A stretch of DNA of 64,000 nucleotides from an uncultured Phocaeicola sp. (GTDB lineage Bacteria; Bacteroidota; Bacteroidia; Bacteroidales; Bacteroidaceae): NCBI GenBank assembly GCA_944320815.1, contig CALUIZ010000008.1, positions 1 to 64,000 on the forward strand, read 5' to 3'. The notes under the pieces were generated by a model. That model was not told the DNA's origin. It saw nothing but the letters and a program-made list of their open reading frames with translations, and did no database searches. Shown piece after piece: positions 45,607-64,000 of this stretch (position 1 is its first letter; each line of letters starts with the position of its first letter). Both the position numbers and the translations under genes were made by a program.

Positions 45607-45871
45607 GAAAGTTTTTTTTCGAATCGGTACTTTTACGGCAAGTTTTATATAAAATTATATTGTAGACACTGATTTTGCATCTTGCTTTTCGGCTCCTGTC
45701 TTTTATATAAGTGTCTGTAATACAGTGGAAAATGGACGGGCATATGTGCAGCCTTTTTTTCTTCCGGTTCCTGTCCGGCAGACCGTGTCCGTGTTCGTAC
45801 AGCTTTGTCGTCCCGGCTCTGCTCCTCCGCGGGCTCCCGACGGTAACATTATAATAACAATTAAAACAAGT

Positions 45872-46927
45872 ATGGATATGACAGACAGGTTTGATATCAG
45901 CATGATTGAAAATATCTCTGAATGTATGGAACGTATAGAGAAGAAACTAGACAATCTTTTATATGTATGTGACGTGAAAGGGCGGCAGGGACCTCCGGAG
46001 TTTCCTTTCCGTCAGGACACCAATGTTCCCGAAAAGGAAAGCTCCCTTTTTAGCTTCATGCAAGGTCTGGCCGACCGACTGAGAGGTTTGGGAAAAGACC
46101 GGACGAGCGAAACTTACCGTGCCACGCTGAATAGTTTCAGGCGGTTCAGAAATGGGAGGGACATCCTTCTGGAGGAGCTGGATTCCGACCTGATGCAGCA
46201 GTATGAGGTTTATCTGGAGGGGAGAGGCGTGAGCAGGAACACCATATCTTTCTATATGCGCATCCTCCGGGCCGTGTACAACCGTGCCGTGGAGAAGGGA
46301 ATGGCTTCCCCGCAGAACCCTTTCAGGCATGTTTGTACGAGTGTGGAGAAGACGGCGAAGAGGGCCATCCCGCTGGACGGCATCCGGCGCATCAAGGAAC
46401 TGGACTTGTCTTCTCGTCCTGCACTCGACTGGGCGAGAGACATGTTCCTGTTCAGCTTCTACACCCGCGGCATGTCGTTCGTCGACATGGCTTATCTGAA
46501 GAAGACGGACCTGCACGACGGACTCCTTTCCTACAGGCGGAGCAAGACCGGCCAGCAGCTTGTGGTGAGGTGGGAGAAATGCATGCAGGAAATAGCGGAC
46601 AAGTATGCGGACTCCGCCACGGACTATCTGCTGCCCATCATCACGGAACGCGGGAAGGATGGCAGACTTCAGTATCAGAGTGCCCTCCATCTGGTGAACC
46701 GGAGGCTGAAGGCCGTGTCGAAGATGGCGATGCTGGACACAGGTCTTTCGATGTATGTGGCGCGGCATTCCTGGGCGAGCATAGCGAGGCGCAACAATGT
46801 GCCTTTGTCCGTCATCAGTGAGGGCATGGGGCATGAATCGGAGGCCACTACCCAGATATACCTTGTCTCTCTTGACAATTCACTGATAGACAAGGCGAAC
46901 CACCAGATATTGAGCGGTCTGGAATGA
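45872..46927 (+). CDS. Tyrosine-type site-specific recombinase, probable capsule-promoter invertase
   Basis: A 351-residue tyrosine recombinase. Residues 70-165 are the SAM-like core-binding domain (SETYRATLNSFRRFRNGRD) and 180-345 the catalytic domain. Active-site residues are Arg in FYTRGMSFVD, Lys in RRSKTGQQ, Arg-His in YVARHSWASIA, the His in GMGHES, and the nucleophile Tyr in TTQIYL. Tyr replaces the first His of box II, which is common in Bacteroides enzymes. The start at 45872 is chosen over 45725 because the extra 49 residues look like untranslated leader. The gene is next to a 381-bp segment between inverted repeats and then a UpxY-type gene. In Bacteroides capsule loci such recombinases flip the operon promoter. 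Confidence 0.92.
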   Translation: MDMTDRFDISMIENISECMERIEKKLDNLLYVCDVKGRQGPPEFPFRQDTNVPEKESSLFSFMQGLADRLRGLGKDRTSETYRATLNSFRRFRNGRDILLEELDSDLMQQYEVYLEGRGVSRNTISFYMRILRAVYNRAVEKGMASPQNPFRHVCTSVEKTAKRAIPLDGIRRIKELDLSSRPALDWARDMFLFSFYTRGMSFVDMAYLKKTDLHDGLLSYRRSKTGQQLVVRWEKCMQEIADKYADSATDYLLPIITERGKDGRLQYQSALHLVNRRLKAVSKMAMLDTGLSMYVARHSWASIARRNNVPLSVISEGMGHESEATTQIYLVSLDNSLIDKANHQILSGLE

Positions 46928-47466: not shown

Positions 47467-47582
47467 AAATTATTCAGGTTGTTTTCAATTTTCGGAGCGG
47501 GACGCATTTTCATTCCACTTTGCAGGAGTAGACGGAACATGTCAATCGCTAAATATCTGTATATAAGAACATTATTCATGTG

Positions 47583-47605
47583 TCCATCTCTTCATAAGAG
47601 ATGGA
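47583..47605 (-). repeat. Right inverted repeat of the invertible segment
   Basis: The reverse complement of the left repeat with one mismatch. The 3-bp spacer reads CAT on the plus strand, opposite to the left copy, as needed for inversion rather than deletion. Confidence 0.85.
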
Positions 47606-47776: not shown

Positions 47777-48886
47777 ATGGACAACGGACGCAAGTGGTTT
47801 ATCATGACTTCTCCCGACCCTAAGCTGGTAGAACTGAAACTGCTGGAAGAGAATATCCAGCGGGAGAAGGATGGCATGCCCACTTTCCAATATTTCATTC
47901 CCTATCAGTTTCTGAAACATCGGGTGGCCGACTCCAACCCCGAAGACGAGGCGGAGGACGGGCGGTTCTTCAATCCGATGAACCGCGCGGATGTGTCGGC
48001 CAACAACCAGCTCCGCACGGCCCTGAAGCGGTATATCTTCATCCGTTCCAGCGACCGGGATCTGGAGGCCCTTTTGGGCGGGAGGGAGAACCACGACTGT
48101 TACCGCACGCTCTGGTTCTACCGCGACAAGAACCGGAACAAGCTCACCGTCTCCGACGACGCGATGGGCAGTTTCATTGATGCCTGCTGCGACCGCCGCA
48201 TCAATTTTGAGGTATGGCCTTGCACGGACCACATCGGCGAGAATGCGGAGGTAGTGCTCAACACCACACCTTTCAAGGGCTACAGGGCCCGTGTGCTGGA
48301 GATGCGGCAGGACAGGAAGGGCTTTTCGCTCACGGTGGGCATCTACGTGCTTCAGGGCACGATGTACCTGCGTCTCCCTTCCCTCCGTCTTGAGGACGTG
48401 CTCTACGAACCGAAGAACGCCGACCCGGTGGTCCGCGAGAACAACCGCTACCGCCTGATAGAGGACGTGCAGCGTCAGCTTTTCGGTGTCATGTCCCGCC
48501 GCATGGAGGGCGGCCGGAGTGAGAAGTCGAGGCACAAGGACGCTTCCCTGCTCGACTCCCTCTACAATTACCGCTACCGCACCTTTTCCGGCGACGCGAT
48601 GCGCCGCAAGTTCCGTGCGCTGATGCTCCTGTGCGCCGTCCTGCGCGGCGACAGGTTCGGTACGGAAGAGCTGGTGGTGGAGGTGAAGAAGGAGCTTGAC
48701 GGCATCGAGAGCCGTCCGAAGAGCAAGATGAGCGTGTCAGTGCGTGCCTTCCTGCAGTCCGCGCTCTACATCGCCACGCGCGACACCTCCTATTATAAGG
48801 AGGCGATGGAGTATTTCAACGCACAGAAGAAGCTTTCGGAGGTGCAGCGGGAGCTGGTGGAGGCGATGGAGAAATATGAACATTAA
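47777..48886 (+). CDS. UpxY-type (NusG-like) capsule transcription antiterminator, long form
   Basis: A 369-residue protein. It opens with a NusG N-terminal-like domain (KWFIMTSPDPKLVELKLLEEN...FQYFIPYQFLK and LKRYIFIRSSDRDLEALL). A KOW-like segment follows near 158-215 (VLNTTPFKGYRARVLEMR, then YLRLPSLRLEDVLYE). The final 150 residues are an extra helical domain (SLLDSLYNYRYRTFSGDAMR...KEAMEYFNAQKKLSEVQREL). Known UpxY proteins such as UpaY of B. fragilis are about half this size. Being the first gene after an invertible promoter and before the glycan genes fits a role in letting RNA polymerase read through the long capsule operon. GC content is clearly higher than in the following genes. 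Confidence 0.85.
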   Translation: MDNGRKWFIMTSPDPKLVELKLLEENIQREKDGMPTFQYFIPYQFLKHRVADSNPEDEAEDGRFFNPMNRADVSANNQLRTALKRYIFIRSSDRDLEALLGGRENHDCYRTLWFYRDKNRNKLTVSDDAMGSFIDACCDRRINFEVWPCTDHIGENAEVVLNTTPFKGYRARVLEMRQDRKGFSLTVGIYVLQGTMYLRLPSLRLEDVLYEPKNADPVVRENNRYRLIEDVQRQLFGVMSRRMEGGRSEKSRHKDASLLDSLYNYRYRTFSGDAMRRKFRALMLLCAVLRGDRFGTEELVVEVKKELDGIESRPKSKMSVSVRAFLQSALYIATRDTSYYKEAMEYFNAQKKLSEVQRELVEAMEKYEH

Positions 48887-51553: not shown

Positions 51554-51609
51554 TGCAGAATATAGATTTTGCATATGCAATTTAAAGATAAATTCAAATT
51601 TATACATGA

Positions 51610-52977
51610 ATGGAGGGCTTTTCTTTTGCGAGAAAAATAAAATACAGATTAGTAAATCAGAATACAAGGACTAAACAATCATTAAGAAACTCTTTATATA
51701 TGTTCCTTATTAGGATGATGTCTATGGGAATTAGTTTTTTATACGTTCCCATTTTGATACATCAACTTAATAATGTGAATTATGGAATATGGTTAACGCT
51801 CACTTCAATTGTATCATGGTGTAGTTTTCTTGATATTGGTTTAGGGCATGGTTTAAGAAATTTACTGGCGGAAGCCATTGCAAAAAATGAAAAAGACAGG
51901 ATGAAAAGCCTTGTAGGGACTTCTTATATAATCTTGTCAATAATAAGTCTTTTGTTTATCCCTATAGTATGCATCGTTTTTCCGTTCTTTGATTGGGCTA
52001 GAATTTTAAATGCTCCTCCTTCGATGGGGGTAGAATTACTTGTATTGTCAATTGTTGTCATTATATGTTTTTTCCTGCAATTTACACTGCGTTTAATAAA
52101 TTCGATATTATTTGCTGTGCAAAAACCTGCATTATCTTCTTTTATTAGTTTTATCGCACAATTTATAGCTTTTATCGTGGTCTTTATACTTTCTTTACAA
52201 GATGAGAGTTATTCTTTGTTAACTTATGGAAGCATTATTTCTATAATCCCTATAGTAGTTATGCTCTTTTATACCCTTATCTTATTTAGAACTCAATTGA
52301 ATTTCTTGTCATTTACATTAAAAGATATAAGATTTTCATTTGCCCCTCAATTATTTAATTTAGGTCTTAAATTCTTTTTTATTCAACTGACAGCCATCCT
52401 TTTATTCCAAACTAATAATTTGATTTTAGCTCATGTGGCGGGTCCTGATAAAGTGACGGATTTTAACCTTTCTTATAAATATATTGGAATTATATCAATG
52501 ATATTCACCATCATTGTTACTCCAATGTGGTCTGCAACTACAGATGCTTATCATAGGCAGGATTTTGATTGGATAAGAAAAACTATTCGTGTCCTGCGGA
52601 AAGTATTTCTTTTAATGTCAATAGGAGGAATTATTTTGGTTGTAATGTCTGGGTGGGTATATTCGATTTGGGTAAAGGATGCAGTACAGGTCGATTACGG
52701 AATCCAGATTCTTGTTTTGCTCTATTTCCTTTGCAGTATGTGGTGCGGAATCCATTGTAACATAATTAATGGTATCGGCAAAGTTAAACTACAGTTTGTA
52801 ATGACCACGGTAGAGGCCTTTGTTCATATTCCTCTTGCAATATTTTTGGGGAGATTGTATGGCGTATATGGTGTTCTAACTTCTATGTTCCTTATGACTT
52901 TTATAAACACGATTTGGGAGCCAATTCAAATAAATAAAATTCTGAACAATAAAGCTACTGGAATATGGAATTCTTAA
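51610..52977 (+). CDS. wzx: Wzx-type polysaccharide flippase
   Basis: A 455-residue integral membrane protein with about 12 helices, MOP/PST superfamily. The N-terminal pattern SLYMFLIRMMSMGISFLYVPILIHQLNNVNYGIW is typical of Wzx (quoted across two helices, positions 27-62)... in short, RMMSMGISFLYVP then NNVNYGIWLTL. It would move lipid-linked repeat units to the periplasm for polymerisation. Base composition is markedly AT-rich from here on. The end overlaps the next glycosyltransferase start by 13 bases. Confidence 0.9.
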   Translation: MEGFSFARKIKYRLVNQNTRTKQSLRNSLYMFLIRMMSMGISFLYVPILIHQLNNVNYGIWLTLTSIVSWCSFLDIGLGHGLRNLLAEAIAKNEKDRMKSLVGTSYIILSIISLLFIPIVCIVFPFFDWARILNAPPSMGVELLVLSIVVIICFFLQFTLRLINSILFAVQKPALSSFISFIAQFIAFIVVFILSLQDESYSLLTYGSIISIIPIVVMLFYTLILFRTQLNFLSFTLKDIRFSFAPQLFNLGLKFFFIQLTAILLFQTNNLILAHVAGPDKVTDFNLSYKYIGIISMIFTIIVTPMWSATTDAYHRQDFDWIRKTIRVLRKVFLLMSIGGIILVVMSGWVYSIWVKDAVQVDYGIQILVLLYFLCSMWCGIHCNIINGIGKVKLQFVMTTVEAFVHIPLAIFLGRLYGVYGVLTSMFLMTFINTIWEPIQINKILNNKATGIWNS

Positions 52978-54110
52978 GAAGGAAGATTGAAAAACTGCTC
53001 CATATAAAAAAGAATGATGCGGTTTATAATATAAATTATGATGCATTAGGAGGACAAAAAAGAGTTGCTGTTATATATATAACTAAGATTTTATCACAAC
53101 AATTAAATGTAAATGAAATAAGACATGTAAATATTTTACATGCATTTCAGATGATAAAAGTATTGATAGGACAAGGTTATGCTATTGATTTGTATCCGTG
53201 CGCAAGCTATACACCGGATTCTTTAAAATACAATCATTATGATATAATTTTGGGATTCGGACAGAATTATATTAAGCTATGTGCTTTAAATCCTTGCGCA
53301 TTAAAAATATTGTTTGTAACAGAAAATGCTCCTTGGACTGTAAAAGATAATTTTTCACAACGATTGTCATATTATAAAGTAAGGCATGGTAAGATTCCAT
53401 ACACTTTATTGCGAACACAATTTTATAATAAAGAAATGTTTGATATTTCCGATGTTGGGATTATTATGACAGGCACATATAATTTCAAAGGGATGCAGAA
53501 TTGTTTTAAGAATGCGTTTCGGATTAATGTGAATGCGTTGTTTAATCCTGATACTAATAAATGCCCTACTAAAGATTTTACATCATTAAAAACTAATTTT
53601 GTGTGGTTTGGCTCAAACGGACTGATACATAAAGGATTGGATATTCTTATAGATAGTTTTGCTCAATTACCAAATTATTGTCTGAATGTATATGGTGCAC
53701 CGGGAAAAGAAATAAAAGGATTTTCCATACCAGAAAATGTGATAATACATGAGAGTGTGAATGTCTTTTCTAAAGACTTTATAGATAAGGTCATTAATCA
53801 GAATGTGTTTGTCGTGTCACTTTCATGTTCAGAAGGTATGATGTCTGGTGTGGCCACTTGTATGGCGCATGGGTTGATACCTATAACTACAAAAGAAACA
53901 GGTTTTGATGATGTCTCAGGTAATATTACATTTGATTCATTTGAAATTAAGGATGTGGTTGATGTAATTATAAAGGCTGCCAATATGAAAGGAGAGGAAT
54001 TGCAGGCTTTATCAACTAAAATATTTGAATATAGCAGGAAAGAGTATTCATTGAAAAAATTTGAATCATCTTTTAGTCAAATAATGAGTGAGGTAAATAA
54101 AATTGAATAG
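52965..54110 (+). CDS. GT-B type glycosyltransferase
   Basis: A protein of 381 residues. The C-terminal half has the GT-B pattern: TNFVWFGSNGLIHKGLDILI near residue 210, CLNVYGAPGKEIKGF, and SLSCSEGMMSGVATCMAHGL with the acidic residue that contacts the sugar nucleotide. GHGL-like IPITTKETGFDDV follows, as in family 4-like enzymes. The N-terminal half is unusual (RVAVIYITKILSQQL). Acceptor and donor are unknown. The start overlaps the end of wzx, indicating translational coupling. Confidence 0.8.
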   Translation: MEFLRRKIEKLLHIKKNDAVYNINYDALGGQKRVAVIYITKILSQQLNVNEIRHVNILHAFQMIKVLIGQGYAIDLYPCASYTPDSLKYNHYDIILGFGQNYIKLCALNPCALKILFVTENAPWTVKDNFSQRLSYYKVRHGKIPYTLLRTQFYNKEMFDISDVGIIMTGTYNFKGMQNCFKNAFRINVNALFNPDTNKCPTKDFTSLKTNFVWFGSNGLIHKGLDILIDSFAQLPNYCLNVYGAPGKEIKGFSIPENVIIHESVNVFSKDFIDKVINQNVFVVSLSCSEGMMSGVATCMAHGLIPITTKETGFDDVSGNITFDSFEIKDVVDVIIKAANMKGEELQALSTKIFEYSRKEYSLKKFESSFSQIMSEVNKIE

Positions 54111-54124
54111 TAATTTTATAATAA

Positions 54125-55438
54125 ATGGCAAAAGCAATAGTTTTAAATGAATCATATAAAGTAACATTATTTGATTACTTATATTTTTTCATAATAGTTA
54201 TTTATATGGGACAGGCTACCTCAGAAACAAGTAGAATGGTAGGTTCATTGTCTGGTAATCCTATTCCATTATTGCTGCCTATAGTGTTGACTTGTATTTT
54301 ATGGAAGAAGCATCCCATTTCTTTTAATAATAAGAACTTACATAAGGTATTAGCTATTTATACGATTTGGGCGACTTGTTCGCTGATTAAATATGGAAGT
54401 TACACGACACAGGAACTTTCTTATCATTTTTTTATGGTTTATGCCATTATCATTGCATATATTCATAATCAAATATTTGGATATAAATTAGTACCTCTCT
54501 ATGAAAATGTTCTAACTTTTCTTTGTAAGATAGCGGTCATCGGTTGGCTTGTAGCTGTATTAATACCGGCCTCCGCTTCATTTTTCAGATTGTTTTATGA
54601 AACGGGATACGGCAATAATGTTTTTTATTTATTTACTTGGATGGACCCAGCGAAAGGACAGGCTTATTCTGGTATCATTAGAAATGCAGGCTGTTCTTGG
54701 GAACCCGGTCGTTTTGCTATTATGGTTGCTTTGGCCATATTCTGTAATCTTTGTCAGAATGGAATTAAGTTCAGGAACAATAAAAATATTTGGTGGTTGC
54801 TTATAGCTTTAGCGACGACACAATCTACTACAGGGTATTTTTCTGTGCTGGTTCTTTACATTATATTTATGGTAAAGAAATTCAATCTTAAATATACTTT
54901 TTTACTCATATTAGTTCTAGGTCCTGTTGTTTATGGTTTGATTCAGTTGGATTTTATGGGAGAGAAAGTTACTTCGAGAATATCCGATGCTCAAGATGTT
55001 TCACGGTTGGAAGAACAGTTCTCATGGAATTCTGTCCAATATGAAGAAGGTGAATATTTGGGTTCCATAGATCGTTTTGAAGCTATGGTATTTGAATGGA
55101 CAAATGTGTTAAACGACCCTATATTAGGTTATAGCAGGAATGTGGAGCATTCTTACTTTAGAACTCATATTTCTTCCAATTATGCATTAGCGAATGGTCT
55201 TGTCAAAGTTTTAGGAATGTTTGGTTTGCCATTGGGACTTTATTTCTTCTATATTTTATATCGTGCTTCAGTTACAATAGCTTGTCAGAGTAAGGAAAAA
55301 AGAAAGTTAGGATTGATGGTCTTATTGTGTATGAGTGCAATTTCTTATACCATTCTTTCTATACCAGTATTTACTAGTTTCTGGTTTTATGGTGTTTTTA
55401 TAACTTCTAATAAAACTAATAAAAGGAGTATTAAATAA
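54125..55438 (+). CDS. wzy: Wzy-type polysaccharide polymerase
   Basis: A 437-residue integral membrane protein with about 11 helices. A large periplasmic loop lies near residues 280-345 (EQFSWNSVQYEEGEYLGSID...RFEAMVFEW). The signature GYSRNVEHSYFRTH in that loop, and the NAGCSWEPGRFAIMVALAIF segment, fit O-antigen/capsule polymerases, which join repeat units in the periplasm. Sequence conservation in Wzy is always low, so the call rests mainly on topology and position between glycosyltransferases. Confidence 0.8.
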   Translation: MAKAIVLNESYKVTLFDYLYFFIIVIYMGQATSETSRMVGSLSGNPIPLLLPIVLTCILWKKHPISFNNKNLHKVLAIYTIWATCSLIKYGSYTTQELSYHFFMVYAIIIAYIHNQIFGYKLVPLYENVLTFLCKIAVIGWLVAVLIPASASFFRLFYETGYGNNVFYLFTWMDPAKGQAYSGIIRNAGCSWEPGRFAIMVALAIFCNLCQNGIKFRNNKNIWWLLIALATTQSTTGYFSVLVLYIIFMVKKFNLKYTFLLILVLGPVVYGLIQLDFMGEKVTSRISDAQDVSRLEEQFSWNSVQYEEGEYLGSIDRFEAMVFEWTNVLNDPILGYSRNVEHSYFRTHISSNYALANGLVKVLGMFGLPLGLYFFYILYRASVTIACQSKEKRKLGLMVLLCMSAISYTILSIPVFTSFWFYGVFITSNKTNKRSIK

Positions 55439-55467
55439 ATATCTCATTCAAGAAAAAGTAAGTATAA

Positions 55468-56676
55468 ATGAAAGTATATATTTTGACTAGAGAGCCATTT
55501 CCTAATGGAATGGCTGCAACCAACCGCATAAAATGCTACGCGAAAGCTATCATAAAAAAAAAGGTGGCATGTGAAGTTCTTATTTGTACTCGTACTGAGA
55601 GATATGGAAAACCACCTAAAAATACAATTGGAGATGGTATTTTTGAAGGCATTTCTTATAAATATATAGGAGGAACACCGTTGAGAAGTGGCAATATTGT
55701 TCTCCGACAAATTAATGATAGGATGGATAAGGTGTGGACTATGCTATACCTGTTTAAACATCTGAAAAAAGGCGATATTGTATTAGGATATTGTGGTGTT
55801 TTCCCACATTTTATAAATACGATTATTCGTATAACGCACATGAAGAACGCATTCTATTTTCGTGATTTGTGTGAACTTCCTTATGGTACATCCCAAGAGA
55901 CTGCAAGGAATATTAAACTACGTAAATTTACTTTTTCCAAACAATTTCCATTGTGTGATGGATTTATAGCCATATCGGATACCTTGGTTACATTGGCTGA
56001 AAAGTATAAAAGGACTGATGCTAAGGTACTGAAGGTGCCTATATTGGTTGACTTTGAGAAATATTGTATAGTAGACAAATCGAACGAGGTTGATGTTCCT
56101 TATATATTTCACAGTGGTACTTTGTTTGAACAGAAAGACGGCATATTGGGAATGATTGAGGCATTTGGTATTGCATTGCGCCAAATACCTTTCCCTATTC
56201 GTTTTATTTCTACTGGAAAAATAGAGAATTCACCTCACAAGGAAGCTATTCACGAATTGATAGAGAAATACCATCTGAAGGATAAAATTTTGTTTACCGG
56301 ATATTTATCAGAAAGTGAATTAAGAGATTATTTGTCAAAAGCATCATTAGTCATAATCAATAAGTATGATACTCAACAAAATAAATATTGCTTTTCTACA
56401 AAACTTGCTGAATATTTGGCAGCGAGTAAACCGGTAATTATTACAAAAGTTGGTGAGGCTATGAATTGGTTGACGAATGGCAAAGACGCTTATATTGTAG
56501 AAGCGCAACGAATTGATTCTTTAGCCGAAAAAATAGTTGATGCTTTTACAGAAGTACAGAAACGATATGACATTGCGAAGAATGGCTTCAAGACTTGCAA
56601 GAACAGTTTTGACTATCGGAATTACAGTAAACAATTAATTGATTTTTTTACTCAGATTTCAAATGATACCAATTAA
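55468..56676 (+). CDS. Family 4 glycosyltransferase
   Basis: A 402-residue GT-B enzyme. The N-terminus begins VYILTREPFPNGMAATNRIK with the expected glycine-containing loop. The C-terminal domain has YIFHSGTLFEQKDGILGMIE, ILFTGYLSESELRDYLSKAS, and CFSTKLAEYLAASKPVIIT, where Glu in KLAEYLA is the conserved nucleotide-contacting residue. It carries an A9 run at 55554-55562. The end overlaps the ATP-grasp gene by 14 bases. Confidence 0.87.
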   Translation: MKVYILTREPFPNGMAATNRIKCYAKAIIKKKVACEVLICTRTERYGKPPKNTIGDGIFEGISYKYIGGTPLRSGNIVLRQINDRMDKVWTMLYLFKHLKKGDIVLGYCGVFPHFINTIIRITHMKNAFYFRDLCELPYGTSQETARNIKLRKFTFSKQFPLCDGFIAISDTLVTLAEKYKRTDAKVLKVPILVDFEKYCIVDKSNEVDVPYIFHSGTLFEQKDGILGMIEAFGIALRQIPFPIRFISTGKIENSPHKEAIHELIEKYHLKDKILFTGYLSESELRDYLSKASLVIINKYDTQQNKYCFSTKLAEYLAASKPVIITKVGEAMNWLTNGKDAYIVEAQRIDSLAEKIVDAFTEVQKRYDIAKNGFKTCKNSFDYRNYSKQLIDFFTQISNDTN

Positions 56677-57580
56677 AATTCCTAAAACAAACTTATTGCA
56701 TAGAGCATATGGTAAGATGCTTCACATTTTTTCCCCTTATCTTTCAGACGAGTTATATCTAAAATTACTTTTTCGACATCGAATGGGCTGTCAATTAAAT
56801 TTGGACAATCCAAAGACATTTAATGAAAAGTTGCAGTGGCTGAAATTATACAATCGGAATCCGTTATATACGGTTATGGTTGATAAAGTTAAAGCTAAAG
56901 AATACGTTGCAAGTAAAATAGGTGAACAATACATCATACCGACTTTAGGTGTATGGGAAAATGCGGATGATATTGATTTTGACTCTTTGCCTTCCCGATT
57001 TGTTATAAAGTGCAACCACAACAGTGGTAAAGGTATGTATATCTGTAAGGATAGAAGCAAAATGAATGTGGAAGAAATTCGTAATGGATTACGTAAAGGA
57101 CTCCGCGAGAATTATTACCTGCATGGTCGTGAATGGCCTTATAAAGATGTTCCTCGACGTATTATAGCTGAACAATATATGGAGAGTGAAGACCGGAAAG
57201 AACTTCAAGATTATAAGTTCTTCTGTTTTAATGGTGAACCACGTTTGTGTCAGGTTATAAGCGACCGCTCTACAGATGGTAAAATAGATTTCTATGACAT
57301 GCAATGGAATAGAATAATTGGGTTGCTTGAACCATGCAACGATGTATTTCATAATAGTGATGTCGATTTTCCATGTCCTATATCTTTTAATGAAATGAAG
57401 CGGTGTGCGCATATTTTGGCCGAAGGGATGCCTTTTTCTCGTATTGATTTTTATGATATTGACGGGAAAGCTTTCTTCGGTGAAATAACATTTTTCCCCA
57501 CGTCGGGATTAGGAATGTTTTCTCCAGAATCGTGGAGTGAAAAGACTGGTAATTGGATAACATTACCAATAAAACAATAA
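56663..57580 (+). CDS. TupA-like ATP-grasp protein
   Basis: A 305-residue protein of the TupA-like ATP-grasp group. It begins with helices typical of the group (FRHRMGCQLNLDNPKTFNEK and LQWLKLYNRNPLYTVMVDK). ATP-grasp signatures follow: SRFVIKCNHNSGKGMYICKD with the phosphate-binding loop, RIIAEQYMES, DYKFFCFNGEPRLCQV, and FSRIDFYDIDGKAFFGEITF with the metal-binding Glu. TupA itself helps make teichuronopeptide, in which amino acids are joined to a uronic-acid polymer. With uronic-acid genes upstream, an amide decoration of the capsule is possible (inference). The start at 56663 is the first ATG; the frame above it offers only TTG. Confidence 0.88.
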   Translation: MIPIKIPKTNLLHRAYGKMLHIFSPYLSDELYLKLLFRHRMGCQLNLDNPKTFNEKLQWLKLYNRNPLYTVMVDKVKAKEYVASKIGEQYIIPTLGVWENADDIDFDSLPSRFVIKCNHNSGKGMYICKDRSKMNVEEIRNGLRKGLRENYYLHGREWPYKDVPRRIIAEQYMESEDRKELQDYKFFCFNGEPRLCQVISDRSTDGKIDFYDMQWNRIIGLLEPCNDVFHNSDVDFPCPISFNEMKRCAHILAEGMPFSRIDFYDIDGKAFFGEITFFPTSGLGMFSPESWSEKTGNWITLPIKQ

Positions 57581-57594
57581 TAGCACACAATAAT

Positions 57595-58695
57595 ATGAGA
57601 TTAGCAATATTAATAGATTTTTTTGGTGGAGGTGGGAAAGAACGCAGGTGTCTCCAATTGATAAAAGGATTAAATTGTAACAATATTAAAGACATCCATG
57701 TCATCATGATAGATAATATCATTGATTATCCAGATTTATATAAAACGACTGCCAAAGTTCATATAATAGAACGTCATGGAAAGTACGATTTGGGTGTTAT
57801 AAAAAGGTTATATAAAACATTGAAACAGATTAATCCTGATGTAATCATGACATGGACATTGATAAAAATGTCATTCTATCTCTGTATAATAAAACCTTTC
57901 TTGAAATGTAAATATATTAGTGCAATTGTAACAGCTGCACAGCCCATAAAAAAATATACTATTGATGACATAACGAGATTCATAGCTTTCAAGCAAGCTG
58001 ATGTTATAGTCGGGAATTCTTATGCCGGAATAAAAGCTTATAAAGCACCAATAAAAAAATCATTAGTTATTTATAATGGTTTTGATATGGAGCGTTTGAA
58101 TAAATTAAAGTCTATCGACCAAGTTAAAAATGATTTGTCTTTAAAAACTCCGTTCATGGTGTCAATGGCCGCAAGAATAAACAGACACAAAGATTACCAA
58201 ACTTATATTGATGCAGCAAAGAAAGTGATAGCCCAACGGAAAGATGTAACATTTTATTGCATTGGAAAAGGAGAATTGATAGATTATTATAAAAGCCAAT
58301 TAAATGCGGAAGAACAGAAATATGTAATGTTCTTAGGGTTTAGAAAAGATGTAGATTCAATACTGAATGCATCAACTGTCTCTGTATTATGTACAAACAA
58401 TAAACTTCATAAAGAGGGTGTGTCCAATACTATATTGGAGTCAATGGCTTATGGAGTTCCAGTTGTTGCTACGACAGGTGGAGGTACGGATGAAATAATA
58501 CTTGATGGTGAAACTGGTTTTATTATTCCTCCTTTTGAACCATCTGTTTTGGCTTCAAAGATTAATACATTGTTAGATAGCGAATCATTACGACGGCAAA
58601 TGAGTGAAAAAGCTAAAGAAAGGATACGAAATAACTTTTCGCTGGATTTAATGGTGGAAAATTACATGTCGCTTTTTAATCGGATATTATGCTAA
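57595..58695 (+). CDS. Family 4 glycosyltransferase
   Basis: A 366-residue GT-B enzyme. The start at 57595 gives MRLAILIDFFGGGGKERRCL, with the glycine-rich donor/acceptor loop. The C-terminal domain shows FMVSMAARINRHKDYQTYID, VMFLGFRKDVDSILNASTV and EGVSNTILESMAYGVPVVAT, with the conserved E-x7-E pair (EGVSNTILE). This is the best-conserved GT4 of the locus. The stop overlaps the FrhB-like gene start by 7 bases. Confidence 0.92.
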   Translation: MRLAILIDFFGGGGKERRCLQLIKGLNCNNIKDIHVIMIDNIIDYPDLYKTTAKVHIIERHGKYDLGVIKRLYKTLKQINPDVIMTWTLIKMSFYLCIIKPFLKCKYISAIVTAAQPIKKYTIDDITRFIAFKQADVIVGNSYAGIKAYKAPIKKSLVIYNGFDMERLNKLKSIDQVKNDLSLKTPFMVSMAARINRHKDYQTYIDAAKKVIAQRKDVTFYCIGKGELIDYYKSQLNAEEQKYVMFLGFRKDVDSILNASTVSVLCTNNKLHKEGVSNTILESMAYGVPVVATTGGGTDEIILDGETGFIIPPFEPSVLASKINTLLDSESLRRQMSEKAKERIRNNFSLDLMVENYMSLFNRILC

Positions 58696-59879
58696 AGTTT
58701 TTGAATAATTTCATAACCTTTGATTATTATAAATGCCAGCAATGCGGCATTTGTAAGCCAATTTGTTCCACGAAAGCGATTTCATACACATTGTTGCCTA
58801 ATGGTTTGCAGAATATTTCCATAGATTCAGACAAATGTATCTGGTGCAAGAAATGTGTGAATGCTTGTCCGGCAAATAAAGAAAGTCTTTACACTAATTA
58901 CTTTGAGGAGTTCCCAAATAAAAGATATTTTCTGGGATATAATAAAGATAATTCCCTTCGCCGGGAATCCTCTTCAGGGGGTGTATGCAAGACTCTCATA
59001 ATCGAAGGGCTGAAATCGGGTCTGGTGGATGGAGTTTATTCCTTAAAATGTAGCACTCAATATCCATATGCAGAAGGGGCATTTTATACAAGGGAAAATA
59101 TTCCTGCCTATACTGAGATTCCCAACTCTGTATATCATTCCGTGATGGCGTGTTTGAACTTTACAGCCATACAGAGATGTGATAAACTGATGATTGTAGG
59201 AACGGCCTGTCAATTGCGTGCTTTGGAGAAAGTTGTGAAAAATAAGTGTAATACCCTGATAAAGGTCTGTATTTTCTGCAAGCAGCAGAAAACATTGGAT
59301 TCAACCCGCTTTTTGGCAAAAGTGATGGGTACTAAGATTCCGGAAAATCTAAATTTTTCGACTTGCTATCGTGGAACAGGGTGGCCGGGAATCGTTCGTG
59401 TGAATGAATCTGAACTGCCATGGAACAGGGCGGCTCAGATTCCGTTCGGTAGAAGATTATGGACTGTGCCGGGCTGTGACGTGTGTGGCGATTCATTTGG
59501 AACAGAATGCGGAGCAGACATTTCTTTAATGGACCCATGGGAAATCAGACAGCAGAATGATTTGGGAGAGACATTGATCACGGCGCATACGGAAAAGGGA
59601 CTTCAATTGTTGCAAACAATTCCGAATCTGGTATTGGAGGCTAAAACGTATCAAGAAGTGAAGCCGGCATTGTCTTTGAAAGATGTATGGCGTAAGCAGC
59701 AGCTTGTCCCGTTTTTCAGAGGGAAAGATTGTGATAAGGAAATAATGAAGGCAGGAAAGAAAGAGCGACAACAGAGGAAATGGCTGCAATTGATCGTTGA
59801 AAGATTACCGCGTATGCCATTCATTTTTTATCGGGCGTTGTGCAAATTTCCGGATTTAAGAAATCGCATTTTAAAATAA
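58689..59879 (+). CDS. F420 hydrogenase/dehydrogenase beta-subunit-like iron-sulfur protein
   Basis: A 396-residue protein. Two 4Fe-4S ferredoxin motifs lie at the N-terminus (CQQCGICKPIC near 15-25 and CIWCKKCVNACP near 50-61). The FrhB N- and C-terminal domains follow (RRESSSGGVCKTLIIEGL, MIVGTACQLRALEKVV, PGCDVCGDSFGTECGADISL). This family recurs in polysaccharide loci next to pyruvyl transferase genes. Bacteroides has no F420, so a flavin-linked redox step on a sugar or precursor is possible. The next gene, a pyruvyl transferase family member, starts 1 base after the stop. Confidence 0.88.
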   Translation: MLKFLNNFITFDYYKCQQCGICKPICSTKAISYTLLPNGLQNISIDSDKCIWCKKCVNACPANKESLYTNYFEEFPNKRYFLGYNKDNSLRRESSSGGVCKTLIIEGLKSGLVDGVYSLKCSTQYPYAEGAFYTRENIPAYTEIPNSVYHSVMACLNFTAIQRCDKLMIVGTACQLRALEKVVKNKCNTLIKVCIFCKQQKTLDSTRFLAKVMGTKIPENLNFSTCYRGTGWPGIVRVNESELPWNRAAQIPFGRRLWTVPGCDVCGDSFGTECGADISLMDPWEIRQQNDLGETLITAHTEKGLQLLQTIPNLVLEAKTYQEVKPALSLKDVWRKQQLVPFFRGKDCDKEIMKAGKKERQQRKWLQLIVERLPRMPFIFYRALCKFPDLRNRILK

Positions 59880-59880
59880 T

Positions 59881-60984
59881 ATGGACATTAAAGTAATAAC
59901 TCGTCATGCACCTTCCAATTATGGCTCGTTGCTTCAATCAATGGCTACTATAACTATTCTTGAGAGGTTGGGATGTCGGTGTGAGATTATTGACTATATC
60001 CGTAAGGATGAACAAGGACTGAAAGCAATTCTGGCGGCTCTGAACAATAAGGAAGGATGGAATGGGAACTTTATAAAGAAAATGTTGTTCATTCTTTTCA
60101 GGTATCCGGAAGAAAAAATTGCAGAGCGAAAGTTTGAAAAAATGCGTTCACAATTTCTGAAACTTACCAGAAGATGTGCTACCATTAAAGAGCTGTCTAC
60201 ATTGACGGCTGATGTCTTTATGACAGGAAGTGATCAGGTTTGGGGGCCTACAATTGATGGGAAATATGACGAGGCTTATTTTCTTTCATTTGTCCGGAAT
60301 GCTCCGAAAGTCGCTTTTGCCGCCAGTTTTGGCAGAACAGACTTTAATGATTCAATCTTGTTAGCATATAAGAGTCTGTTGTCTACCTATAAAGCAGTTG
60401 CCGTGCGAGAGAATACGGCAGTAGATTTGTTGAAACAAATGGGCGTTCCATGTGTCGGGCAGGTATTGGATCCGACATTGTTGCTTACCGGAGATGAATG
60501 GAGCAAATTCATAAACAGGAAAAACTCTTTGCCTCAGTGCTATGTGTTGGTTTATCAGTTGCATAATAATCCGACACTGAATGAATATGCGAAGAATTTT
60601 GCAGCTCATGTTGGATTGCCTCTTTATCGTGTTTCTCCCACATTCCATCAGTTCAGGAGAGGGGGCAGATTCATTTATCTTCCTGATTTAGGGGAGTTTC
60701 TTTCTGCAATAAAGAATTGTTCATATTTCATTACTGATTCTTTTCATGGAACGGCATTTGCCTTGAATTTCAATAAGCAATTCATTGAGATTTTGCCAAA
60801 TAACAAGACAGGAAGCAGAAACCAGAGCATATTGAGACTGACAGGTTTGGAGAATCGTATAGTGACTGATTTTGATGATTTTTCTATAAGCGAAAGATTC
60901 ATTGACTTTAGTAAAGTCAACCAGATACTGGAGTATGAAAGGAATAAATCATTAAACATCTTGCAAGCAATTATTGGTTTATGA
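59881..60984 (+). CDS. Polysaccharide pyruvyl transferase family protein
   Basis: A 367-residue protein. The N-terminus has TRHAPSNYGSLLQSMATITI, the family-typical start for ketal pyruvate transfer enzymes (CsaB/WcaK type). Further motifs are DVFMTGSDQVWGPTIDGKYD near 117, AVRENTAVDLLKQMGVP, VLDPTLLLTGDEW, and YFITDSFHGTAFALNF near 285 with the conserved Ser-Phe-His-Gly. It would add acidic pyruvate ketals to capsule sugars. It pairs with the FrhB-like gene. The stop overlaps the next gene start as ATGA. Confidence 0.9.
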   Translation: MDIKVITRHAPSNYGSLLQSMATITILERLGCRCEIIDYIRKDEQGLKAILAALNNKEGWNGNFIKKMLFILFRYPEEKIAERKFEKMRSQFLKLTRRCATIKELSTLTADVFMTGSDQVWGPTIDGKYDEAYFLSFVRNAPKVAFAASFGRTDFNDSILLAYKSLLSTYKAVAVRENTAVDLLKQMGVPCVGQVLDPTLLLTGDEWSKFINRKNSLPQCYVLVYQLHNNPTLNEYAKNFAAHVGLPLYRVSPTFHQFRRGGRFIYLPDLGEFLSAIKNCSYFITDSFHGTAFALNFNKQFIEILPNNKTGSRNQSILRLTGLENRIVTDFDDFSISERFIDFSKVNQILEYERNKSLNILQAIIGL

Positions 60985-62243
60985 AAATTATACTTATCAC
61001 TTATCCGGTTTCTCCTTATAGAGGTTCGGAGTTTGCCGTATCGTGGAACTATATCGTTAATATGTCCAAATACCATGAGCTTTTTGTATTGTATGGGACA
61101 TCCGGTAATGGATTTGGTAATGTCAGCGAACTGCAAGATTGGTTGAAGTCACATGATTTACCGAATGTACACTTCATTGATGTGCAGGTGCCTAAAAATA
61201 GTATCTCAAACTTTCTGGCATTTTGCCGTAAAATAAGTTATACCTATGGCTCGTATATTCAATACAAGTACTATTACAGATTGGTATATGAAAAGGCGAA
61301 AGATATAATCTCTCGAGAAAGAATTGATGTTGTGCATTATTTAAATCCAATAGGGTTTAAGGAGCCGGGAAGATGTTGGAAAATAAAGAGTGTACCTTAT
61401 ATCTGGGGGCCAATACAGGGAGTGGAAAACAGGCCCTTTTGTCTATATAGGGCTTTAGGAATGAAAGGTTGTTTGGATGCGATTGTTCGACTTGTGTTCC
61501 ATAATGGGATTTTGTTTTGTTCTTCAAAAATACGAAAAGCAATAAAAAGAGCGGATTATTTATTTGCCGCTACTCCACGAACCGTAAAACAGATGAAATC
61601 TATTTTTCATAAAGATGCAATTTATTTGCCTGAAAATGGTATTCTGGAAATGAAATGCTATAATCCTATTCATTATGAAAAAAATGAAACTTTTCGGATT
61701 GTATGGGTTGGGGCTGTCTGTTATAGAAAAGGGCTCGTTTTGTTATTGGAGGCGTTGAATCAGGTGAAAAACGAGAATTGGCAATTGGATGTATGTGGCA
61801 GTGGAGAACTTTTGAATAAATTGAAGTCAATCGTCAGGGATTCTCATATCGAGTCCCGAATCAAATGGCATGGGAATTTGCCAAGGGAGGACGTTTTTGA
61901 ATTGTTTCGGGCGGCTCACCTCCATGTGATTTCGTCACTTGGTGAAGCAACGACAACAGTATTATTTGAAGCTATGTCATGCGGAGTTCCCACGATGACA
62001 TTAGATCATTGTGGCATGGCGGGTGTCGTATGTGAAAAATGTGGCATCAAGATTCCGATTCGCTCTTATAGGCAAGTTATATCTGATATTGCCAAGAATA
62101 TAGATTGTTTGATAGAAAATCCTGAAAGAATACATACACTCTCACAAGGTGTTTTGGAATGTTCCAAAAAATACATGTGGGAAAACAGGATTAAGATATT
62201 CAATGAAGTTTATGAAAAAGCTGTATTGAAGTATAAGGTTTAA
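60981..62243 (+). CDS. Family 4-type glycosyltransferase
   Basis: A 420-residue GT-B enzyme. The N-terminus IILITYPVSPYRGSEFAVSW has the loop typical of acceptor binding. The segment VPYIWGPIQGVENRPFCLYR is seen in a subgroup of Bacteroides capsule GTs. The C-terminal domain has FRIVWVGAVCYRKGLVLLLE, GNLPREDVFELFRAAHLHVI and GEATTTVLFEAMSCGVPTMT. Donor and acceptor are unknown. It overlaps the pyruvyl transferase gene by 4 bases. Confidence 0.88.
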   Translation: MKIILITYPVSPYRGSEFAVSWNYIVNMSKYHELFVLYGTSGNGFGNVSELQDWLKSHDLPNVHFIDVQVPKNSISNFLAFCRKISYTYGSYIQYKYYYRLVYEKAKDIISRERIDVVHYLNPIGFKEPGRCWKIKSVPYIWGPIQGVENRPFCLYRALGMKGCLDAIVRLVFHNGILFCSSKIRKAIKRADYLFAATPRTVKQMKSIFHKDAIYLPENGILEMKCYNPIHYEKNETFRIVWVGAVCYRKGLVLLLEALNQVKNENWQLDVCGSGELLNKLKSIVRDSHIESRIKWHGNLPREDVFELFRAAHLHVISSLGEATTTVLFEAMSCGVPTMTLDHCGMAGVVCEKCGIKIPIRSYRQVISDIAKNIDCLIENPERIHTLSQGVLECSKKYMWENRIKIFNEVYEKAVLKYKV

Positions 62244-62297
62244 ATTTCGCTTGATAAGACTCCGTTTTTCAATATGTAATTAAATCTATATAACACA

Positions 62298-63365
62298 ATG
62301 AATGCATATAAAATCAGTGTAATTATTCCATGCTACAATATATCTCAATATGTGGAGAATTGCATGAAATGTCTTAGAGCACAGACATTTAAAGAGTTTG
62401 AGGTAATTTGTGTCAATGACGGAAGTACTGATGATACACTTGCGATGTTAAATAAATATAAATGGGGGGGGGTAAAAGTGCTGTCCACAAAAAATCAAGG
62501 TGTATCACAAGCCAGAAATGAAGGAATCAAACTGGCAAAGGGTGATTATCTTTATTTTTTTGACCCAGATGATTATATCGAACCGGAAACATTAGAAATC
62601 ATTTACAGCAAGGCAGTTGAAACAGATAGTGATGCCGTACAATTCAATTTCCGGTTAATAAAGATTCCAGCTAATATCAAGTGTGAAGGACGGAATGGGA
62701 ATAAAAAGACTGGTGTATATGAGAATGAAAATATTATTAAAGAATATCTATCTCGTTTTATAGGTTATTCGGCAAGTGACATTCAATTATTCGGAACAAG
62801 AGATTTTTATGCAAAGAAAGAGATGGGAACTGTATGGAGATTTCTTTTTAAACGTTCTGTAATAATAAATAATGATATTTTGTTTCCAGCAGATGTGCGT
62901 TTGAATGAGGATTCTTTATTTAATTGTAGATTCTTTTGTTTTGCCTCAAGAATTTATTATATTGATAATATCTTATATACATATTATTCAAAAGATAATG
63001 GGGCAATGATTTCCTCATTAAAGAATTTTGATGTTCTGTTCCTGAATAAATTAGCAGCGAAAAATGAAAGAATGGTTCTTCGGAATTTGTATTTAGAGAA
63101 ATGGGGAATAGATATTTTTCCATTATTTGCAGGTTCACTATTCTTGTCGGCATTAGAAATAGCAGTTAAATCAAGTTATTCATTAAGTAATATTAAAAAG
63201 TTTCTTGAATATGTCGCAGATAAGGATGTGAGAAATGCCATTTCTATCATTCCATTCAGCGGGAATTTAAAGATAAAAGCCTTGTTGCTTTTATTTAAAA
63301 TGCGATGTTTCATTTTCGTGTATCTAATGATTTATTTTATGAACAAAATTGGGATGAAGATTTAA
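62298..63365 (+). CDS. Family 2 glycosyltransferase with in-frame G9 tract
   Basis: A 355-residue GT-A enzyme. The N-terminal catalytic domain has SVIIPCYNISQYVENCMKCL, the donor-binding Asp in VICVNDGSTDDTLAML, QGVSQARNEGIKLAKGDYLY, and the DxD motif in FFDPDDYIEPE. The C-terminal third is less conserved and ends in a hydrophobic helix (FVYLMIYFMNKIG). Codons 56-59 (WGGV) are encoded by nine consecutive G at 62464-62472, so the gene is open in this sequence but would frameshift with a one-base slip. It begins 54 bases after the previous gene. Confidence 0.92.
   Translation: MNAYKISVIIPCYNISQYVENCMKCLRAQTFKEFEVICVNDGSTDDTLAMLNKYKWGGVKVLSTKNQGVSQARNEGIKLAKGDYLYFFDPDDYIEPETLEIIYSKAVETDSDAVQFNFRLIKIPANIKCEGRNGNKKTGVYENENIIKEYLSRFIGYSASDIQLFGTRDFYAKKEMGTVWRFLFKRSVIINNDILFPADVRLNEDSLFNCRFFCFASRIYYIDNILYTYYSKDNGAMISSLKNFDVLFLNKLAAKNERMVLRNLYLEKWGIDIFPLFAGSLFLSALEIAVKSSYSLSNIKKFLEYVADKDVRNAISIIPFSGNLKIKALLLLFKMRCFIFVYLMIYFMNKIGMKI
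62464..62472 (+). repeat. G9 homopolymer in the GT2 coding region
   Basis: Nine G in a row in an otherwise AT-rich gene. The frame is intact at nine. Loss or gain of one base would truncate the enzyme soon after residue 60. Confidence 0.85.
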
Positions 63366-63452
63366 TCTGAAATGTTGTTTTCTTTTTGTTTCAGGAAAAA
63401 TGCTTCTCTAACTAAATATATCAATAAAGCAGTAATCTTAAAAGATAGTTAT

Positions 63453-64000
63453 ATGCAGATAAATACCCCCCCCATTCGCTAAATAACGTTAAATCAAATC
63501 GTTACGAATCCCTTGACGGTCTCCGCGCATACGCTGCAATTGGCATTGTCATGATGCATGTGCTTGCAAATGTTGTGGTCAAGCCGAGTGAGAATTTTCT
63601 GACGGATGTCATCATTCCGTTTTTTACGAATTTCACGCTTCTGTTTATGGTGGTAAGTGCTTTTTCGGTGTGCTGCGGATATTATGACAGGGTGAAGAAT
63701 GGGGCGATGAGGCCGAATGATTTCTACAAGAAGCGGTATCGGCGGCTGCTTCCGTTTTTTGCCTTGATGGTCATCATTTCATTGGCAAAGGATCATGACT
63801 ACAAGGCCTTGTGCGAGAGTTTTGCCAACTTGACTTTGTGTTTCAATCTGTTGCCGAATCCTTCTATTGAAACAATCGGTGTGGGATGGTTTATCGGGAC
63901 TGTGTTCACGTTTTATCTGCTTTTTCCGTTCTTTACGTTTCTGTTGGACAATAAGAAAAGAGGCTGGTTCGTATTGGTGGTTTCGTTAATCTTCTGCTTG
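63453..64000 (+). CDS. Acyltransferase-3 family membrane protein, frameshifted at a C8 tract, 3' cut by window end
   Basis: The body, read from about 63473 to the window end, is an acyltransferase 3 domain that O-acetylates or O-acylates surface glycans. It shows RYESLDGLRAYAAIGIVMMH, a membrane helix IIPFFTNFTLLFMVVSAFS, and YKKRYRRLLPFFALMVIISL. The likely start is ATG at 63453, but the eight C at 63466-63473 put the body out of frame, and translation stops after nine codons (MQINTPPIR). With nine C the frame joins perfectly to the body. The body frame has no other start before the ATG at 63551, which would remove the conserved SLDGLRA. I read it as a phase-OFF gene or a sequencing slip. 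Confidence 0.8.
63466..63473 (+). repeat. C8 homopolymer after the acyltransferase start codon
   Basis: Eight C in a row, 11 bases after the A of the putative start codon. Eight gives a frameshift and stop; nine opens the whole gene. Confidence 0.85.

Follow-up and report, generated by a model that had tools for sequence, protein, structure and literature searches.

A glycosyltransferase gene in an AT-rich capsule operon contains nine consecutive G, and the question it raises is whether this run merely spells out a stretch of protein or works as a switch. In the window (the whole 64-kb stretch of DNA analysed), no G/C run reaches a length of 7 apart from this G9 and a C8 lying about 1 kb 3' of it, in the adjoining gene. 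The features concerned are:

62298..63365, plus strand: GT2 glycosyltransferase gene, 355 aa, with the G9 tract at codons 56-59 and a match to PF00535
62464..62472, plus strand: G9 tract, candidate slipped-strand ON/OFF switch; ON at 9 and 12, OFF at 7, 8, 10 and 11
63453..64000, plus strand: acyltransferase-3 (AT3) gene, best start ATG 63453, running past the window to contig position 64510
63466..63473, plus strand: C8 tract at the AT3 5' end, where the frame is broken; OFF at 8, ON at 9

We consider it likely, with a probability of roughly 0.7, that the G9 is a contingency (simple-sequence-repeat) switch providing slipped-strand phase variation beneath promoter inversion. The observations that point to this are the tract positions, the frames, the consequences of each tract length, a statistical excess and the recurrence of this pattern among related species.

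The GT2 gene (PF00535, E=8.3e-34) is close to the 3' end of a UpxY-type capsule operon. The initial annotation had read the run as encoding WGGV with the frame ON at nine, and frame reading confirms this: the codons are AAA TGG GGG GGG GTA (K W G G V). When the frame is computed for each length, 9 G give the GT2 of 355 aa and 12 G one of 356 aa, while lengths of 7, 8, 10 and 11 lead to stops at 73, 58, 74 and 59 aa, respectively. The run had also been placed in the catalytic domain. It does fall inside the GT-A domain (residues 7-123); its place there, however, is a loop that varies in both length and sequence, bounded by the helix that follows DGSTDD and by the strand preceding NQG, and no conserved WGG is present at this site among 20+ aligned family-2 homologues. 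GT2 family membership therefore does not account for the G9, and catalysis has no need of WGGV. Close homologues of the GT2 were found neither among 200 family genomes (E<=1e-50) nor among 393 order-level genomes (E<=1e-40), nor in a collection of genome contigs. Another homopolymer of the operon region, an A9 at 55554-55562, is in frame (IIKKKV) within a GT1 gene (55468-56676).

The C8 about 1 kb downstream, also claimed initially, is indeed present, and its gene adds the AT3 OFF state to the earlier account. The AT3 matches PF01757 end to end (E=9.8e-34, residues 20-337 of 353 aa). Its sole good start is ATG 63453, which at C8 yields only the peptide MQINTPPIR before a stop; the domain itself lies in a different frame, which stays open between about 63450 and contig position 64510. 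A ninth C joins both frames as MQINTPPHSLNNVKSNRYESLDGLRAYAAIGIV..., a normal-looking AT3 N-terminus, with a product of 353 aa as against 9-11 aa at the other lengths computed. The next in-frame start, at 63551, would lose the segment LDGLRAYAAIG, which we take to be conserved among AT3 enzymes. The assembled genotype is thus GT2 ON, AT3 OFF. Nothing close to the AT3 was found across the genus genomes, nor to the locus in a DNA-pattern search of viral contigs for a sister locus.

Both genes belong to an operon that carries candidate elements of a further, higher switch:

45725..46927, plus strand: tyrosine recombinase (from sequence inspection), which may be the invertase acting on the promoter segment
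47179..47207, no strand: left arm of an inverted repeat (29 nt, 90%), putative invertible promoter boundary
47577..47605, no strand: right arm of the same repeat, 369 b separating the two arms
47777..48886, plus strand: UpxY-like (NusG-like) antiterminator at the head of the capsule operon
54125..55438, plus strand: Wzy-like polymerase of the same operon (from sequence inspection)
60981..62243, plus strand: GT1-family glycosyltransferase, the gene upstream of the GT2

The antiterminator is assigned from its sequence and from the general organisation of Bacteroides capsule loci, and is presumably UpxY-like. Capsule loci of this UpxY type, along with the SusC genes, suggest that the DNA comes from a gut Bacteroidales. 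The 29-nt inverted repeat, whose core was not found elsewhere in the genome, sits between the tyrosine recombinase and UpxY, and this is the layout of Bacteroides-type invertible promoters, with inverted repeats upstream of UpxY and a recombinase nearby. The sole Bacteroides-type -7-like motif in the segment (TACTTTTG, 47218, minus strand) faces away from the operon, so that the assembled promoter orientation may be OFF. The UpxY-like gene is 98.9% identical to one on another contig of the same genome (G000:C12:37774-38925), whereas the Wzy genes 3' of them share 76%; near-identical UpxY-like genes with divergent Wzy suggest that the regulatory cassette has recently recombined.

In the mechanism that we propose, slipped-strand mispairing during replication would now and then add or remove one G in the G9, shifting the GT2 frame and replacing the 355-aa enzyme by a product of 58-74 aa, and a second slip would restore it. 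The C8 would act likewise on the AT3, OFF at 8 and ON at 9. Together, the two tracts could specify up to four capsule decorations, while the invertible promoter would set the whole operon on or off, above both single-enzyme switches. The sequence and the genus survey described below give good support to this arrangement of adjacent slip-prone capsule genes with combinatorial states under an invertible promoter, which the initial annotation had put forward. As in contingency loci, both tracts lie within reading frames and reach the length of about 7-8 G/C at which hypermutability is expected, and a one-unit change in either would toggle between full-length and truncated products. Comparable loci elsewhere in the genus vary in run length and frame. 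Slippage at G9 and C8 would be reversible and of high rate, the GT2 and AT3 presumably add a side group to the glycan, which may be terminal as the initial annotation proposed, and the tracts may be maintained by selection from phage or host immunity.

How surprising are these runs? In 1500 order-2 Markov simulations with the composition of 51600-63500 (34% GC), a G9 arose in 0.27%, a C8 in 0.07% and both together in 0/1500. The earlier claim that two such runs are unlikely by chance holds at this level and is weaker for the G9 taken by itself: synonymous resampling with the protein fixed gives a run of at least 9 at the G9 site in 3.8% of draws, and in 6% when 12 capsule genes are considered over their whole length. 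If WGGV is taken as given, the G9 by itself is therefore only mildly improbable. In 400 kb of DNA from the same genome, picked regardless of runs, the longest run is a single one of 7. The whole genome contains 36 G/C runs of at least 7, 13 of at least 8 and 4 of at least 9, the longest being 9, and the tail ratio climbs with run length from 0.16 to 0.3-0.36 rather than dropping. The pooled counts of 32 good genus genomes are 890, 275 and 102 runs, their decay likewise slowing at 8-9; a genome with a 43-G run (G202) was excluded from these counts. Homopolymers are thus over-represented with respect to local composition, and the excess of runs of at least 8 over this one genome is modest, with P between 0.008 and 0.12 according to how the tail is extrapolated. 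The closeness of G9 and C8 was discarded as evidence by itself, any pair of the 13 runs falling within 1 kb with P=0.05.

Of these 13 runs, eight lie within genes, and the rest are intergenic or at contig ends. The run-bearing genes are the GT2 and its AT3 neighbour, a second GT2, a polysaccharide polymerase-like gene, a hexapeptide acyltransferase of the second capsule locus, a GNAT enzyme, a thioredoxin-like protein and a hypothetical. GT2 and AT3 genes (20 + 3 = 23, or 0.9% of coding DNA) hold 3/8 of the in-gene runs, with P about 4e-5, and glycan genes overall hold 5/8. The background here is given by genome-wide Pfam counts, a self-built HMM set having under-detected AT3. The enrichment scan for runs of at least 8 proposed in the initial annotation therefore came out in favour of the switch. 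Two candidates were set aside: the G8 of the hexapeptide enzyme on contig C12 is not strong evidence because it encodes the conserved motif GGVPA, and a broken GT2 on contig C46 is a remnant without a long homopolymer. In the compared stretch of a repeat common to two contig ends, the run is G8 in one copy (G000:C41:70-77) and G9 in the other (G000:C57:6259-6267).

Across the genus, runs of 9-14 G/C are common. We surveyed 87 runs of at least 9 from about 30 species, scoring frame continuity wherever the run falls in a gene that could be recognised; the broken and intact classes were hand-curated and several gene identities come from reading translations, so the survey statistics are indicative. 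Pfam confirmed the GT2 of loci L048/L118, as well as L125, L035, L043, L113 and L078, and returned no match for the fragments of L107, L123 and L045. Frames are broken exactly at the run in GT2 genes (L048 and L123, both G10), in an AT3 (L113, G9) and in a CapK/PaaK-like gene (L107). The same is seen in hexapeptide acyltransferases (L045, G9; L125, C10; L053, C9, C-terminal), in SusC-like TonB receptors (L041, C11; L076, G13; and, with the run inside the signal peptide, L073, G12, and L078, C14), and in HsdS, between or after the target domains (L043, probably L035). The genes for PriA, TopB, TilS, a SurA-like protein and a Na/H antiporter all read through their runs in frame, HemW being the one broken. 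In this hand-curated set, 13/24 surface or restriction genes are broken vs 1/11 others (Fisher P=0.013), the former count being 12 if L035 is really a junction at which one HsdS gene ends and a second begins. Such tracts are thus concentrated in surface or restriction genes across the genus; in housekeeping genes, with which a comparison had been suggested, long runs do occur in a few cases, but nearly all of them are in frame.

The strongest single support for function is a parallel layout in a relative, G140, whose capsule locus on contig C33 is related to ours (Wzy 68-69%, Wzx 37%). Its GT2 carries a G10 directly after a PCYN motif and is OFF (it would be ON at 9). A hexapeptide acyltransferase gene follows, which carries a C9 and is ON, the runs being 0.9 kb apart. 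The enzymes differ, but the layout matches: a G run in a GT2 and, about 1 kb on, a C run in an acyltransferase. Except for G140, no matching GT2/AT3 run was found in the second capsule locus (contig C12) of the genome that contains the window, nor in five other loci with related Wzy.

The alternative to which we would give some credence, while regarding it as unlikely, is a neutral coding coincidence, in which WGGV simply happens to be encoded by TGG GGG GGG GTA, a mutational hazard kept in frame by selection on the enzyme. The frame is indeed ON at 9, and GGG-GGG at WGG has a codon-usage probability of about 4% (the 3.8% of draws above). The modest genome-wide excess, the lack of any run above 9 and the in-frame runs of 8-9 G in the housekeeping genes PriA, TopB and TilS likewise count against a switch, and some runs do fall in conserved motifs (GGVPA in hexapeptide enzymes, GGGTPS in HemW). 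However, the G9 occupies a variable loop without conserved WGG, the next gene has a second run with a broken frame, the pairing recurs in the capsule locus of G140, and run-broken frames are far commoner in surface than in housekeeping genes.

Sequencing or assembly errors, by which the true lengths would differ (e.g. C9, with AT3 intact) and the breaks in other species would be homopolymer errors, seem to us improbable. Run lengths come from draft assemblies, one genome has HemW disrupted at a G10, and G202 has artefact-looking runs of up to 43 G, but errors should strike housekeeping and surface genes alike, whereas the breaks concentrate in surface and restriction genes; errors also leave the existence of runs in AT-rich genes unexplained. 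It is still harder to believe in a decaying operon, with the AT3 a pseudogene and the GT2 run heading the same way without reversible switching. The AT3 frame is broken in the assembly, but the gene is otherwise open over its full length with its domain complete, and a break exactly at the sole C run of at least 7 in the window fits a switch, not random decay. Finally, RNA polymerase or the ribosome might slip on the runs in a programmed way, giving a fixed mixture of full-length and truncated products from one DNA; the AT3 could then be expressed at C8, but lengths and frames differ among relatives as slippage of DNA predicts, and we give this option hardly any weight. The contingency switch thus remains our preferred reading.

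On/off switches based on G/C runs are well known in Neisseria as well as Campylobacter. Glycan genes with contingency G/C tracts are classic in the latter (PMC4965091, PMC8355987), and Campylobacter jejuni has poly-G/C contingency loci in capsule and LOS genes (PMC8355987). Similarly to that species, the homopolymers described here lie in surface-glycan genes that are ON at one length class and otherwise truncated, and several independent switches combine; in contrast, the phylum is different, the runs in this genome are fewer and shorter, and the operon is also under a predicted invertible promoter and UpxY antitermination. In Bacteroides fragilis, the capsule varies in phase via promoter inversion and UpxY/UpxZ (PMC12632263; PMC11868660). 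The present locus shares with that system the UpxY-headed capsule operon, the recombinase and the upstream segment flanked by inverted repeats. Inversion acts on a whole operon, whereas a G/C run would affect just the one enzyme in whose gene it lies.

The nearest precedent is in B. fragilis 638R, where an acetyltransferase-related gene of the PSI/9 locus has a frameshift through an extra C in a 4-C run, and slippage was raised as a possibility (Patrick et al. 2010, PMC3090145). That case also concerns a capsule-locus acetyltransferase disrupted at a C run, but a run of 4-5 is no contingency tract and the part of the article consulted describes no family of long runs. In the text available from a 2025 review of Bacteroidales (PMC12632263), only inversions are treated and the terms slipped, homopolymer and simple sequence are absent. 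No homopolymer phase switches in Bacteroidales were found in the open-access literature, which reports inversion systems, although such absence is not proof. The mechanism is thus already known elsewhere and, within the scope of that literature, apparently undescribed for gut Bacteroidales.

Taken at the level of the genus, we find it fairly plausible that an unrecognised poly-G/C phasome exists, a finer layer of random switching beneath promoter inversions. Its members would be capsule glycosyltransferases and acyltransferases, HsdS, and those SusC-type receptors whose signal peptides bear a run. Studies of phase variation in gut Bacteroidales count invertible DNA, and homopolymer switches escape such counts. 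They can also be edited out as presumed sequencing errors; Nanopore indels, for example, have been corrected so as to restore open frames (PMC10333322). If the phasome is real, the cells of a clone would differ gene by gene in their capsule structure, in phage receptor state, in the repertoire of nutrient receptors and in restriction specificity, and the tracts are exact sites for measuring such variation in existing reads.

Some loci of the survey deserve mention in their own right. Three SusC-like TonB receptors (L073, L078 and L058) have G9-G14 runs in or beside their signal peptides, 2/3 being out of frame. In L043, a G9 separates the two target-recognition domains of HsdS and splits the gene, an arrangement that resembles the NgoAV specificity switch of Neisseria. 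The 43-G run of G202 (G202:C84:12947-12989) is probably a sequencing artefact. Finally, a polysaccharide locus of another species (L107/L108, G242:C1:2474000-2507900) harbors four G runs of 9-16 in about 20 kb, one of the four being a G16 and the others lying in AT3, CapK/PaaK-like and SGNH-like genes.
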